From contig JAGQYO010000031.1 of NCBI GenBank assembly GCA_020435995.1, positions 1 to 39,889 on the forward strand: a DNA stretch of 39,889 nucleotides, written 5' to 3'. Within the stretch, counting starts at the first letter, position 1, and each line of letters opens with the position of its first letter. The stretch is from Flavobacteriales bacterium. GTDB taxonomy: Bacteria > Bacteroidota > Bacteroidia > Flavobacteriales_G > Salibacteraceae. Under the pieces are notes generated by a model. It did not search any database and had not been told where the DNA came from. It saw nothing but the letters and a program-made list of their open reading frames with translations. Made by a program: the position numbers and the translations under genes. Shown here piece by piece: positions 10,198 through 17,747 of this stretch.

Positions 10198-10371
10198 AAG
10201 TTCATTTTAAGCCAAACACACACCCTTATTACCAAAACTGGCCAGCCATGAAATTTCAATTAGCTATCAAGACAGCAATCAACTATTCGCTCAGCAAAAT
10301 GACAATTTATTATAGAAATATTCGCTCATCTATTTTTTAAGCCACCCTAGTATGTTCTCAATCTTCAATTA

Positions 10372-10383: not shown

Positions 10384-13209
10384 ATGAAAATACGGTCTAT
10401 TATCTTGTGTATTTACTTGGTCTCAAGAATGACTTCATTTGCCCAACAGCCCATCTCAAATCAACTAACAGAGGTACATGGTTTACCTTCCATGCTTGTG
10501 TATGACTTGTTTCTCGACCAAAAAGGTAAATTGTGGCTTGGCACCGAAGAAGGAATCTACTGGTATGACGGTTTTGAATTTCATGGCATTAGCCTCCCAC
10601 ACGCTAGATCTACCGCTGTAAGCGGAATTGTAGAAGCTCCTAGTGGAGAAATCCTTTTCCGAAATTTCTCCAGCCAAGTATTTGTATTGTCAAATGGAAA
10701 AACCAAACCATTGCAACTCAAAACAAAAAATGGAATAATTCAAGATTTTAAGGAATTTACAAGGTCTACTAATGGTCAGTTCTATTTTTTAAAAGACTCC
10801 GTGATTTATACAACCCCAAATCCTGTAACGGACTCTGCGAGCGTGATTTGGGATCAAAAAGTTGCGGGAGCTCCGGTGCGTTGGTTACATTTTGTAGTGA
10901 ACGACACCTTGTTTTTTTCAGAAAAACACATTGTTGACCTTGGCGATCAAAAGATTTACCCAAACCCTTTCAAGACAAGGGCTACTGGCTTTTTTGAAAA
11001 CCAATTGCTTCAATTCAACTATGCGAACTCGGCTTATTTCTACCTTGGCATAAACGATTCGATGAGCATATTTAAAGACCAACGTAAAACCATTATCAAC
11101 CACACCTATTTCGAATCGACAGAATCGGTGTGGCTTTGCACCAGAGATGGCCTATCTAACCTAAGAAAAGGGAAGTATCGAACATGGTTTTCAGGCGAAT
11201 TTGTGACGGATATGTTATCCGATAACGATGGCAACTATTGGGTGAGCACCTTGAACAATGGAATTTATCGCATCCCAAAACGAGAAGTTTATTGGTTTAC
11301 CGGCAATGAACAAATTCTTCAAAATCGCCACGTAACATGTGTGCAATGGAAGGACAACAATAGCTTTTTTGTAGGGACCAATGACGGTAAAGTGTACTTA
11401 TCGACTACCGAAGGCAAGACCAACCTTGTTTTTGACTCTAAATTTAAGGAGCCAATTAAACAAATATTGTTTCTCAATCCTGATACACTTGGCATGAAAA
11501 ATCAACCAGTATGGGCATTTGTGGGACACTCAATTTACTTTCTAAATGCGAAATTTGAAATGATAAATCACGCCATTAACGCCTCAAAAGGACTAACAAA
11601 ATTAGAAGCAAACAACTACCTTTTTACCTCAGGTGATGAATGTGGTCATTACGATATTCAATCAAATCAAAAGACTATTCATAGATTCCGTCGTGGACGG
11701 GCCATTCTGGTACAAAATGGTACACAGTTTATCGGCTATGACGATTCGCTAATGGTAAAAACCCCGAATAGCAATTGGAGAGCGGTTTCAAGCGAACAAG
11801 GTAGTATTGTTTGCTCTGCGTTGATTGGATACAGAGACACCGTATGGATCGCTACCCTCAATCAAGGGCTTCTTACTTACATTAATGGAAGGGTTTCGGC
11901 TCAATCTGCAAGTAAGGATATCGGACGAGGTATTCACATGAAATACCATAGAGGTAGGCTGTATATATCCACAACAAAAGGACTGTATTCCATTCAAAAT
12001 GGCCAATTGAATATAACGAACATTAGCCAGCAATTAGGCCTGCCACAAGGAGCTGTTCCCTACTTCGATTTAAACGATTCTTTACTTTTGATAGCCTTAC
12101 GCAATGGATTGATATATTGCAATTTAAACAAAATTGAAAATCATTTAGAATCCCATAACCTTGATCGGATTTCGATGAGCACTGATCTCAAAAACAAGTA
12201 TGACTACGATGAAAATGAGTTGACTCTTGGTTATGACTTTTGGAATTACAGCTCCAACAATTACAAATTATTTTACCGCCTTGATGAAGGTCCGTGGAAA
12301 GATCATCCCCTATTTCCCACTCAAATCACAATAAACACACCGCTACCTGGTCATCATGTACTACAGATGTCACTAGGAAATGAGCCAAGCGACGCTCACA
12401 TTTGGTTTTCACAGGCTTTTAGAATCTCGCCACCTTATTATGCTACTTGGTGGTTCAGGGTGTTGGTAGGTTTGATTCCCTTGCTCCTTGTCGCATTTTA
12501 TTATTCCCATAGAATCAAACAGCAAAAAATAAGATCTCTACAGGAACTGAGGATTAGTAAGGCCGAACAAGCCCGACAACTCTCTCAGCTCACTGCGCTG
12601 CGCTCTCAAATGAATCCTCACTTTTTGTTTAATGCGCTCAACAGTATTCAAGATTTCATACTTCAAAACGATAAAGGAGCAGCTAACCGCTACCTTGGCA
12701 AGTTTGCCGATTTAATCAGGAATACACTCACGCTATCATCCAGTGAGCTGATCTCGCTCCAAGACGAGATAAACGCGTTAGAGAATTACCTCGAATTGGA
12801 AGCATTGAGATTTAATGACCAACTCGCATGGAAAATAGAAATTGCCAATGGATTGGATTTAAGCTACTATCGCGTACCTCCATTACTCATCCAACCCTTC
12901 GTAGAAAATGCCCTAAAACATGGTTTGCTACACCTTGAGGGATCAAAGTCACTTTGGATAAGGGTTTCTGAATCACATGATTTGCTTTGTATTGAAATTG
13001 AGGACAACGGCATAGGAATCAAGGCCTCGCTGTCGCAAAAAGACAAAAACAAGGAACATAACTCCTTTGCTTTACAAGCCAATCGATCGAGAATAGATTT
13101 GTTAAACAACCTCTACAGTGGTAAACTAAATTTAGAAATTATTAGCCCCTCCCAGCATACCATAGGAACCTTAATTAGAATTCAATTACCTAATTTGCGC
13201 CACTCATGA
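10384..13209 (+). CDS. Propeller-type LytS-family sensor histidine kinase
   Basis: A 941-residue inner-membrane sensor. Order of parts: signal peptide (residues 1-21, ending SFAQ); a periplasmic beta-propeller of two-component-regulator-propeller repeats (for example DQKGKLWLGTEEGIYWYDG, DNDGNYWVSTLNNGIYRIP, VWIATLNQGLLTY) to about residue 600; a Y_Y_Y-like beta-sandwich; one membrane helix near 692-712; a short coiled coil; and a LytS-type kinase core. H746 in MNPHFLFNALNSIQDFIL is the phosphoacceptor, and the N-box is QPFVENALKHGL near 836. The architecture resembles Bacteroidota polysaccharide or envelope sensors, but the ligand is unknown. Its TGA overlaps the ATG of the LytTR regulator (ATGA), so the two form one transcript and a cognate pair. 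Confidence 0.9.
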   Translation: MKIRSIILCIYLVSRMTSFAQQPISNQLTEVHGLPSMLVYDLFLDQKGKLWLGTEEGIYWYDGFEFHGISLPHARSTAVSGIVEAPSGEILFRNFSSQVFVLSNGKTKPLQLKTKNGIIQDFKEFTRSTNGQFYFLKDSVIYTTPNPVTDSASVIWDQKVAGAPVRWLHFVVNDTLFFSEKHIVDLGDQKIYPNPFKTRATGFFENQLLQFNYANSAYFYLGINDSMSIFKDQRKTIINHTYFESTESVWLCTRDGLSNLRKGKYRTWFSGEFVTDMLSDNDGNYWVSTLNNGIYRIPKREVYWFTGNEQILQNRHVTCVQWKDNNSFFVGTNDGKVYLSTTEGKTNLVFDSKFKEPIKQILFLNPDTLGMKNQPVWAFVGHSIYFLNAKFEMINHAINASKGLTKLEANNYLFTSGDECGHYDIQSNQKTIHRFRRGRAILVQNGTQFIGYDDSLMVKTPNSNWRAVSSEQGSIVCSALIGYRDTVWIATLNQGLLTYINGRVSAQSASKDIGRGIHMKYHRGRLYISTTKGLYSIQNGQLNITNISQQLGLPQGAVPYFDLNDSLLLIALRNGLIYCNLNKIENHLESHNLDRISMSTDLKNKYDYDENELTLGYDFWNYSSNNYKLFYRLDEGPWKDHPLFPTQITINTPLPGHHVLQMSLGNEPSDAHIWFSQAFRISPPYYATWWFRVLVGLIPLLLVAFYYSHRIKQQKIRSLQELRISKAEQARQLSQLTALRSQMNPHFLFNALNSIQDFILQNDKGAANRYLGKFADLIRNTLTLSSSELISLQDEINALENYLELEALRFNDQLAWKIEIANGLDLSYYRVPPLLIQPFVENALKHGLLHLEGSKSLWIRVSESHDLLCIEIEDNGIGIKASLSQKDKNKEHNSFALQANRSRIDLLNNLYSGKLNLEIISPSQHTIGTLIRIQLPNLRHS

Positions 13210-13937
13210 GGGTTCTAATAGTGGATGATGAATTACGCGCTCAACGGTCGTTGGAGAACCTCCTAGATGCCTATTGCCCACGCGTATCGGTAGTAGCCTC
13301 AGTTGGCAGCGTGGCCGCAGCGGTTGGCGAAATTAATCGGCATCAGCCCGACTTGGTTTTTTTGGATATTGAAATGCCTCATGAAAATGGCTTTGCGTTA
13401 TTTAAATGGATGCCTAACCCAACCTTCAGAACCATTTTCACCACTGCGTACGAGCAATACGCGATTAACGCATTTCGGGTATCAGCCGTGGATTACTTGC
13501 TTAAACCCATACAAGCCGAACAATTAGTGCAGGCTGTAGACAGAGCGAGTGAATTGGATAAAAAACTTGAGGTTTGGAAGATTCAACATTTGCGAGAAAA
13601 TATGGAAAAACGGGAAATCAAAAAAGTCTCCTTCCCCACTTCCAACGGGCTTCGCTTTGTGCCCCCTCAAGAGATTGTCTTGCTCAAATCAGAAGGTAGC
13701 TACACGCATGTCTGGCTGCAAAATGATCAAAAAATGCTAATTAGCCGAAAACTTGGCGAGCTTGAATTTGTCTCCCTTCTACCCTATTTCTGTAGAACAC
13801 ATCGCTCATTTGTAGTTAACCTCCATCACGTGGTAGAATACGTGCGTAGTGACGGCGGCTATTTACTCCTAAGCAATGGCGAAATGGCCAGCATTAGCAG
13901 AGATAAAAAAGACGAAGTAATTGCCTTGCTTGGATAA
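13206..13937 (+). CDS. LytTR family response regulator
   Basis: A 243-residue DNA-binding regulator. The receiver domain (about 1-120) has the acidic pair in LIVDDE, phosphoacceptor D54 in LVFLDIEMP, and the conserved lysine near 100 in YLLKPI. The C-terminal LytTR domain (about 138-243) has the family signature IVLLKSEGSYTHVWL, then the FCRTHRSFVVNLHHV element. LytTR proteins bind pairs of short direct repeats about two helical turns apart; such a pair lies immediately downstream at 13949-13979, ahead of the next gene. The 4-bp overlap with the kinase supports translational coupling. Confidence 0.93.
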   Translation: MRVLIVDDELRAQRSLENLLDAYCPRVSVVASVGSVAAAVGEINRHQPDLVFLDIEMPHENGFALFKWMPNPTFRTIFTTAYEQYAINAFRVSAVDYLLKPIQAEQLVQAVDRASELDKKLEVWKIQHLRENMEKREIKKVSFPTSNGLRFVPPQEIVLLKSEGSYTHVWLQNDQKMLISRKLGELEFVSLLPYFCRTHRSFVVNLHHVVEYVRSDGGYLLLSNGEMASISRDKKDEVIALLG

Positions 13938-13948
13938 ACCGACTACCA

Positions 13949-13979
13949 TTCATGGGTTCTAAGCTTCATTTCATGGGTT
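13949..13979 (+). promoter_or_regulatory. Putative LytTR operator: 10-bp direct repeat with 21-bp spacing
   Basis: TTCATGGGTT occurs at 13949-13958 and again, identically, at 13970-13979. The 21-bp start-to-start distance is two helical turns, the arrangement known for LytTR-domain binding sites (AgrA, AlgR type). A near-match to the Bacteroidota -7 element lies at 14008-14015, so the repeats sit just upstream of the expected -33 region, where an activator would bind. Confidence 0.5.
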
Positions 13980-14007
13980 AACCCAATATTAGAATCCAAA
14001 CTCACGT

Positions 14008-14015
14008 GACTTTTG
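14008..14015 (+). promoter_or_regulatory. Candidate -7 element (GACTTTTG) for the T9SS propeller protein
   Basis: Matches TAnnTTTG at five of six fixed positions, 27 bp before the ATG at 14043. The imperfect match would fit a promoter that needs an activator bound at the direct repeat just upstream. Confidence 0.3.
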
Positions 14016-14042
14016 TCCAGAACTTTAAAATGGATATGAGTT

Positions 14043-15842
14043 ATGAAAAAATTAAATACACTACTATTTTCCCTTTGTTTAACTAGTATAATGGGAAGCG
14101 CGGCAGCGCAAACTTGGAAAAACACCTTCACCAGTGATGGGACGGGAGAACGCCCACAAATGAAAGAAAGCCCGGATGGAACAGTCTATATGGCCTTTCG
14201 GGACTATCAAACGGGTAAAGCCAACGTTAAGCAATACAGTAATAAGACCTGGACATGGGTGGGAGATTCTGTTTTCTCTCCTGGAATTATTTCCCAAATT
14301 CGATTAGCCGTAGGTGCGGATAATAAGCCTGTTGTGGCATTTCAAGACGTGGGATCAAATTTTCAGCTTACTGTGATGAAATATAACGGAACTACTTGGG
14401 ACACCATTGGTAATCGTGGATTTTCAGGATTAACTAGCGCTGGAGATATCGGGCTCGCTATTAAAGGCAATACCATTTTTGCTGCCTATCAGCAGTACAA
14501 CCAAATCAAAGTGTGGTATTGGGACGCATTTCAAGGTCAATGGAGCTTTGTGGGCAACAACGGATTAGCTTCTACTGGATTCCCTAGCGGACTCGACTTG
14601 GAAGTTATTGACAACAACCTTTATGTGGCTTACAGAGAAAACAGTGGTAAGAGTATGGTAAGATTTACAGGGGCTACCAACCCAAGCGCTGGCAACCTGT
14701 GGTCTACCTTGGGCGCAGCTTATAATTCAGGGGTTTCGAGCTGCCCGAAAATTATTCCTGTTCTGGGCAGAGTGATGACCACAAACAAAAAATCATCGGA
14801 TAATAAATTTACATGCGACATGTACATTCCACAGGGTAGTTTGTGGTATAAAGGGGGAACCACTCCAGAACAAATATTAAATTACTCTTATGATGTAAGT
14901 TCCAATAACATTGATTCTACAGCATATTTGGCTTATATCGACCCCAGTGATTCAGGAAGAATTTATAGTGCAAACATCAATTTGAGTTGGTCTAAGTTAG
15001 GAAATGGATTGTTTACTGATGAAGGAATCACTGGTGAGGTGGCTACCTTATATACTAGCGATAGACAGCTTTTTGTTGCTTATCAAACCAGAACGGGAAG
15101 CAAAATCAAGGTCAACACTTTTTGTAGTACCGTTTCAAATGCAACCCTAACATTGGCAGGTGATACAGTTTTCTGTGGAGATACCAATGTTTTATTAACT
15201 GCTTCTACAAAAGGGCGTACCTATCAATGGTACAAAGATGGGGTTATGCTTTCAGCTGAAACCAGCAAAAATCTTACTGTAAGTGAAAGTGGCTCTTACA
15301 AATACATTGTAAGCAACTCTTGTGGTGACATAGATTCTAGTGGAGCCATAGTGCTAACCAAAGAGCCAGTACCAGCCCCTACAGTTACCATAAACGGTTC
15401 AACGCTCGAAACACAGTCTTTTGGTTTATATCAATGGAGAAAATCAGGAGTGAATATTCCGGGTGCTACTTCTCAGACCTACACACCAACCGAAGACGGA
15501 CAATACTCGGTAGCTGTTACCAACACTAGGGTTCTGTGTCCTGGCGAATCTCCTGAAGTAAGTTTTACAATGCCTATAGAACCAAGTGGTGTGGCTTCCA
15601 TAGAAGGTTCTTCAAATCTATCGGTCTACCCTAACCCAACCGAGGGCATCATTTGGATAAGCGGTGTAAATAAAATTGATGAGTTCAGTCTTGTGAATAT
15701 TACTGGAAGTAGCATAGAATTAGAAGTTTCGCAAAACGATCCTATACAAATCAATCTGAACAATCATCCCAAGGGGGTCTATTTCCTTTATTTAAAAGAT
15801 TCTGAGGGAATGGACTCTGTGCAAAAAATCATTCTAAAGTAA
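14043..15842 (+). CDS. Secreted T9SS protein with beta-propeller-like and Ig-like domains
   Basis: A 599-residue exported protein: signal peptide (1-22, ending SAAAQ); a repeated beta-rich region to about residue 360 with blades such as GTVYMAFRDYQTGKANVKQY, DNKPVVAFQDVGSNFQLTVM and NTIFAAYQQYNQIKVWYW, consistent with a propeller; two Ig-like domains (RTYQWYKDGVMLSAETSKNL and LYQWRKSGVNIPGATSQTYT); and a type A T9SS sorting domain (SVYPNPTEGIIWISG ... HPKGVYFLYLKD). No catalytic residues are recognised, so a surface binding or adhesion role is likely but unproved. It directly follows the LytTR regulator, with the candidate operator between them, and a rho-independent terminator follows at 15891-15925, so it is probably a single-gene transcript controlled by that system. 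Confidence 0.87.
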   Translation: MKKLNTLLFSLCLTSIMGSAAAQTWKNTFTSDGTGERPQMKESPDGTVYMAFRDYQTGKANVKQYSNKTWTWVGDSVFSPGIISQIRLAVGADNKPVVAFQDVGSNFQLTVMKYNGTTWDTIGNRGFSGLTSAGDIGLAIKGNTIFAAYQQYNQIKVWYWDAFQGQWSFVGNNGLASTGFPSGLDLEVIDNNLYVAYRENSGKSMVRFTGATNPSAGNLWSTLGAAYNSGVSSCPKIIPVLGRVMTTNKKSSDNKFTCDMYIPQGSLWYKGGTTPEQILNYSYDVSSNNIDSTAYLAYIDPSDSGRIYSANINLSWSKLGNGLFTDEGITGEVATLYTSDRQLFVAYQTRTGSKIKVNTFCSTVSNATLTLAGDTVFCGDTNVLLTASTKGRTYQWYKDGVMLSAETSKNLTVSESGSYKYIVSNSCGDIDSSGAIVLTKEPVPAPTVTINGSTLETQSFGLYQWRKSGVNIPGATSQTYTPTEDGQYSVAVTNTRVLCPGESPEVSFTMPIEPSGVASIEGSSNLSVYPNPTEGIIWISGVNKIDEFSLVNITGSSIELEVSQNDPIQINLNNHPKGVYFLYLKDSEGMDSVQKIILK

Positions 15843-17195: not shown

Positions 17196-17747
17196 ATGAC
17201 GCCCGAAACTGGAAATAAACAAAAACTAGAATCTTTTTTTAAGGAAGAATACAACACCCTAAAGGGCTATGTAGGTTCTCGTTTAAAAGCAAGCGCGTCG
17301 AGGGATCCAGAAGATATTATACAAGATGTAGCCTATAATTTATTTGCCAGCGCCGATGGCTACGGCCCCATCAGTAACGTAGCAGCATTTGTTTATCGCT
17401 CCATAAAAAATAAAATAATTGACACGATGCGCAAAGGTGGTCGCTTATCCGAAGAACGCTTACCATCAAGCGACGATCCCGATCAGTGGATGGAGTTCGC
17501 AGAATTATTTTACGGAAATGAAACTTCCGCTTATAGTGAAAAGATGGTGAGTTCACTAAAAGAAGCTATGCTGGGCTTAAACCCCGCCGACCACGACATA
17601 CTTATGGCAGTAGATTTTGAAGGCTATTCATATAAAGAAATCTCGGAGGAAACAGGAAAACCAGAAGGCACACTTATGTCGAGGCGACACAGGGCTTTGG
17701 GTAAATTGAACAAGTTACTAATTGAAATAAAAAACAAGGAAAATTAA
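17196..17747 (+). CDS. ECF-type RNA polymerase sigma factor
   Basis: A 183-residue sigma-70 family protein with regions 2 and 4 only. Region 2 is visible as SRDPEDIIQDVAYNLFASA and AAFVYRSIKNKIIDTMRK; region 4 is the helix-turn-helix DFEGYSYKEISEETGKPEGT followed by LMSRRHRALGKLNKLL. It should redirect RNA polymerase to a small set of promoters. The ATG at 17196 is preceded by a stop-rich 297-bp intergenic region. Two short genes follow closely (10 bp, then a 4-bp overlap), so the three form an operon. No typical anti-sigma gene is adjacent; the membrane protein downstream is the only candidate partner. Confidence 0.92.
   Translation: MTPETGNKQKLESFFKEEYNTLKGYVGSRLKASASRDPEDIIQDVAYNLFASADGYGPISNVAAFVYRSIKNKIIDTMRKGGRLSEERLPSSDDPDQWMEFAELFYGNETSAYSEKMVSSLKEAMLGLNPADHDILMAVDFEGYSYKEISEETGKPEGTLMSRRHRALGKLNKLLIEIKNKEN

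Follow-up and report, generated by a model that had tools for sequence, protein, structure and literature searches.

A putative LytTR operator linking a two-component system to a neighbouring T9SS surface-protein gene in a Flavobacteriales bacterium

In the genome of a Flavobacteriales bacterium (assembly GCA_020435995.1), the 105 bp gap (13938-14042) that separates a LytTR response regulator gene from a gene encoding a protein with a type of C-terminal tail recognized by the T9SS contains a direct repeat that is very probably the operator of the upstream regulator and part of an activated promoter of the T9SS neighbour. All positions refer to the window, the 39,889-nucleotide stretch of contig JAGQYO010000031.1 that was analysed. 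The repeat, TTCATGGGTT-N11-TTCATGGGTT, occupies 13949-13979 on the + strand, with putative half-site 1 at 13949-13958, an 11 bp spacer at 13959-13969 and putative half-site 2 at 13970-13979; both copies are perfect and they lie 21 bp apart, start to start, as the preliminary description had reported. When the 105 bp gap was shuffled 5000 times with preservation of dinucleotides, a perfect 10-mer at an offset of 21 was never obtained, and one at any offset was obtained in 8 shuffles.

The genes that flank the repeat are all on the + strand. A sensor histidine kinase (10384-13209), with a Reg_prop periplasmic part and LytS-type His_kinase and HATPase_c domains (PF07494, PF06580 and PF02518, all over the Pfam cut-off for the translation), overlaps by 4 bp the gene for the proposed binding protein, a response regulator (13206-13937) with Response_reg (3e-21) and LytTR (1e-13) domains. 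By domain content and overlap, these two genes form one operon encoding a LytS/LytTR two-component system. The pair is not an LRS as defined in PMC6193735, a LytTR protein and a membrane protein without a histidine kinase, as here the LytTR protein carries a receiver domain and is partnered by a histidine kinase. The proposed target (14043-15842) encodes a 599-aa secreted protein with a T9SS C-terminal sorting domain (Por_Secre_tail, PF18962, 9e-11, over the cut-off). The sensor, regulator and sorting-domain assignments proposed before database searches are thus upheld, but the Ig domain also proposed for this protein is represented by only a weak Ig_2 match, below the Pfam cut-off. Two further features of the surrounding DNA were recorded. 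Upstream of the sensor gene, at 10281-10328, AACTATTCGCTCA and AAATATTCGCTCA recur 35 bp apart, versus the 21 bp of LytTR spacing, and could be the site of another regulator. Near the T9SS gene, a sigma-70-family gene (regions 2 and 4; 17196-17747) with a 145-aa ORF directly downstream appears to constitute a second regulatory unit.

LytTR sites have been described as repeats of 9-11 nt, positioned 11-13 nt apart, that share no common word (PMC4847170). With two 10 nt perfect repeats, a spacer of 11 and a period of 21, about two helical turns, that is kept in relatives, and with a location just upstream of a candidate −7 box at a conserved distance, the putative site at 13949-13979 fits this description exactly. 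A characterized likeness is the control of yhjX by YpdA/YpdB in Escherichia coli, in which a sensor kinase and LytTR regulator act through 10 nt repeats, GGCATTTCAT, also 11 nt apart with a period of 21 (PMC4847170). The E. coli repeat also ends in TTCAT, but here the sensor is of the Reg_prop type, the word is different, the promoter is of the Bacteroidota type and the target is T9SS-secreted.

Searching the complete genome (3.76 Mb) for the TTCATGGGTT pair with up to three mismatches returned a single other match, located within a uvrA-like coding frame, and the five other pairs of the 8-base core detected with two mismatches are all within ORFs. On the question of whether similar pairs precede other T9SS genes, this search of the 3.76 Mb found no further repeat pair ahead of such genes, and the site therefore looks dedicated to its neighbour; if it is an operator, it would serve one place in this genome. 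A BtsR-like pair pattern, ACCNTTCAT, was also evaluated in this genome and discarded, with 4 matches versus 6 in the reversed control.

The family genomes examined include no second species of the genus, and a search of genome contigs with the regulator identified 12 relatives, at 26-49% identity, none a close ortholog. In two other genera, represented by G034 and G008, a sensor gene is followed by a LytTR regulator gene, two copies of TTCATGGG (in G008 with one mismatch) at a period of 21 and then a gene encoding a T9SS tail. In G034, the best relative, the regulator is 46% identical, the sensor matches at 34% over its C-terminal half, the gene order is the same and TTCATGGG-N13-TTCATGGG starts 12 bp past the regulator stop codon. 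In G008, the regulator is 40% identical overall to that of the window, and the pair, in which the first half-site keeps 7 of 8 core bases, again lies after the regulator gene and ahead of the T9SS-tail gene. When the three regions were aligned without gaps and anchored on the repeats, 8 of the 10 columns of each repeat were invariant, compared to 2 of the 11 spacer columns. Across the order (42 genomes), the 8+8 core is matched exactly only twice, each time downstream of the orthologous regulator gene. Apart from that of G008, the few matches with one mismatch fall within or run into ORFs that are not near LytTR genes, or are in the coding frame of a sensor. In a quick tree of 103 regulators, the three associated with TTCATGGG group as a single clade (support 85), and they reach pair scores of 16, 16 and 15, with no other regulator exceeding 12. 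The two regulators closest by identity (48-49%; G286 and G262) have neither an adjacent downstream T9SS gene nor an adjacent repeat. The G034 and G008 target proteins are homologues of one another (33%), and the protein in the window shares only the sorting domain region with them. Conservation of the repeat together with the regulator and gene order, put forward as the means of checking the proposal, is therefore seen at the same place and the same spacing of 21 in both genera, and related words with that spacing are present in more distant families.

The gaps that follow 113 LytTR regulator genes in the family were collected. Based on simple ORF calls, with several genomes from the same genus and T9SS tails called by the PNP motif (key cases confirmed with Pfam), a repeat with at least 9 of 10 identities at an offset of exactly 21 follows 5 of the 11 regulator genes that precede a co-directional T9SS-tail gene, versus a mean of 0.02 when these 11 gaps were shuffled. 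Offsets of 12 to 40 other than 21 yielded 2 such repeats in total, and none of the 43 gaps before a co-directional gene without a T9SS tail has a repeat at 21. G030 accounts for two of the five, and these have other words, ATTCTCAGCG and CGTTTCTACA; differing words at a constant spacing are as expected if the protein fold fixes the spacing and each regulator the word. There is no clear repeat at 21 in several of the regions with T9SS genes next (L228, L259, L084, L087 and L364), and repeats at 21 also follow three regulators for which the next gene is convergent and no target is evident. In more distant families, a 21 bp repeat is present in 4 of 7 gaps ahead of T9SS genes, with the core TTC(A/G)TGAA, and in G344 a further pair, TTCGTGAA/TTCATGAA, belongs to a second T9SS gene that follows the first. 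In G130, which has a regulator 48% identical to that of the window, a T9SS gene with BNR repeats is divergent from the sensor gene and three copies of TnTGAAT, ~21 bp apart, lie between them. Outside the family the bare TTCATGGG pair was rejected as a class-wide diagnostic, as the matches examined with at most one mismatch were mostly chance matches in coding sequence. In G116, a TTCATGAAT/TTCATGAAG pair with a period of 21 is located between the sensor and regulator genes (L350, 6638-6716), which may reflect autoregulation, and a second pair follows the regulator gene.

The Bacteroidota promoter consensus is TTTG at −33 and TAnnTTTG at −7, the latter occupying −12 to −5 (PMC6847099). As the preliminary description had noted, an imperfect −7 element lies downstream of the repeat: the candidate, GACTTTTG at 14008-14015 on the + strand, matches the sigma-ABfr TAnnTTTG at 5 of its 6 fixed bases and begins 38 bp downstream of the first base of half-site 2. 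This distance is conserved in ten loci, as a −7 box (nAnnTTTG) is found at exactly +38 in the window and at nine other loci, one of them imperfect. These are in G034 (CACATTTG), G008 (GATTCTTG, the imperfect box), G279 (AACATTTG) and G344 (CATTTTTG), a total that none of 5000 shuffles reached, and also in G126 (CACTTTTG), G217 (CATCTTTG), G116 (TAGTTTTG), G049 and G191; the separation of operator and −7 box is fixed across five families. A −33 TTTG was not found at the expected place in the window sequence, which fits an activator-dependent promoter. A similar arrangement has been predicted elsewhere. In Bacteroides thetaiotaomicron and B. ovatus, LRS-like LytTR operons are predicted to have direct repeats with an 11 bp spacer, followed at a distance of 11 bp by a promoter, TGTA-19-TATCTTTG, in which TATCTTTG is the −7 box (PMC6193735). 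By our own arithmetic, aligning the ATTCA of these operons with the TTCA of the window gives the same 38 bp distance. Those LytTR proteins, however, are membrane-bound, have no sensor kinase and are predicted to regulate their own operons, whereas here the regulator belongs to a two-component system and faces a T9SS cargo gene.

If the −7 box occupies −12 to −5, the half-sites span about −71 to −41, a position that by analogy would be usual for an activator of the LytTR type. In Staphylococcus aureus, the LytTR protein AgrA activates transcription as a dimer bound to direct repeats whose centre is near −60, although its word, promoter class and targets are different (PMC4227749). Activation is argued here from geometry alone, and the regulator might instead bind at this site and repress the T9SS gene. 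We consider this unlikely, as the −7 box is preceded by the half-sites, at about −71 to −41, there is no −33 TTTG and activators of the AgrA type are positioned likewise (PMC4227749).

Operator and promoter were combined as TTCRTGRR-N13-TTCRTGRR-N31-ANNTTTG, and an exact search of 395 genomes of the class gave 9 matches, versus none in the reversed control and ~0.09 expected for random bases. Eight of the nine adjoin a LytTR sensor-regulator operon; as the pattern had been built on loci that are among its matches, six of the nine were already in hand and the other three alone constitute a test. Two of these three, in G049 and G191, which belong to the same genus and represent one lineage, lie next to a LytTR sensor-regulator operon, ahead of lipoprotein genes; for the third, in G012, there is no LytTR gene in the 14 kb examined. 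Within the order, the pattern also has an exact match in G034 and two matches with one mismatch in G001. In G191, three tandem paralogous lipoprotein genes are divergent from the LytTR sensor-regulator operon (L385, 3760-7913) and the exact composite precedes the third. The two G001 composites, each with one mismatch, are separated by a kilobase, one preceding a lipoprotein gene and the other a T9SS gene (L386, 7140-8250; G001:C1:2793162 and 2794156). There is no LytTR gene in the 16 kb examined, and these could possibly be remote targets.

Composite matches without a nearby LytTR gene, the general shape shared by LytTR sites and the presence of ten LytTR genes in this genome all leave room for the repeat to be the operator of a different regulator, such as any of the other nine LytTR proteins. 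The word, however, follows a single clade of regulators and their surroundings, and a second LytTR system of the same genome adjoins a different word, GTTCGTAAAG, making assignment to another protein improbable. The locus of that second system (L095, contig C163) has three copies, GTTCGTAAAG, TTTCGTAAAG and GTTCGTACAT, spaced by 21 bp at 11377-11430 after the regulator gene, and its G034 ortholog (L209, 7158-7190) has ATTCACAAAG and GTTCACAAAG. The next gene at L095 is convergent and deaminase-like, and the target could be a small RNA or a short ORF that lacks annotation.

The segment might also act as RNA, with a hairpin that ends the regulator transcript or controls the leader of the next gene. 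A hairpin is predicted (z −2.1 for the whole gap), and an imperfect inverted repeat, TGGGTTCTAA (13953-13962) and TTAGAATCCA (13989-13998), surrounds a 12 bp palindrome, TGGGTTAACCCA, and so overlaps the putative operator. But there is no T-run and no terminator call in the gap, and the G034 and G008 regions fold differently, without this stem, although both retain the direct repeat. The same kind of pair recurs before the second T9SS gene in G344, which neither a terminator nor a regulator leader predicts. With no conservation of the hairpin in these two genera, termination was rejected and a role as RNA appears very improbable. A 40 kb window offers many places for a fortuitous repeat, but other genera keep its place, its word and its spacing, and this conservation and the class-wide recurrence strongly disfavour chance, which is barely credible as an explanation.

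Comparative evidence thus supports the original suggestion that a LytTR operator links this two-component system to its T9SS neighbour. We infer the following sequence of events. The propeller part of the sensor would read a signal from the envelope or surface, and the kinase would then phosphorylate the adjacently encoded regulator. A regulator dimer would bind both half-sites on one face of the DNA, as a period of 21 bp corresponds to two turns, and would recruit RNA polymerase to a promoter that has the −7 box at 14008-14015 and a poor −33 region, so that the gene at 14043 for the T9SS-secreted surface protein would be switched on.

The type of operator is already known; the T9SS setting has been little studied, and a search for literature that connects LytTR regulators with the T9SS returned nothing relevant. 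Recurrent pairing with T9SS genes, a fixed distance from operator to −7 box and cargo exchange were not found in the open literature searched, a weak absence as the search covered open papers only, and that literature also contained no tested Bacteroidota target for a Reg_prop/LytTR two-component pair. In the polysaccharide loci of Bacteroides, hybrid two-component systems (HTCS) with a Reg_prop sensor control adjacent surface-protein genes. In an HTCS, however, the sensor and an AraC-type DNA-binding domain are fused in one protein, whereas here the sensor and the LytTR regulator are separate.

Somewhat more likely than not is a more general interpretation in which a Reg_prop sensor and LytTR regulator constitute a module present across the class in Bacteroidota that, through a rigid TTCRTGRR-N13-TTCRTGRR-N30-nAnnTTTG arrangement, drives adjacent T9SS or lipoprotein cargo, with the cargo (RCC1, LamG or unclassified proteins) exchanged between lineages and the operator and regulator retained. 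The geometry provides a base-level rule that predicts a target gene and its promoter from sequence, and it suggests that the cargo gene has been swapped while the switch has been kept. The genomes surveyed are rich in LytTR/Reg_prop systems, a first look at the richest relatives giving as many as about a hundred candidates, and control of individual T9SS surface proteins becomes directly testable.
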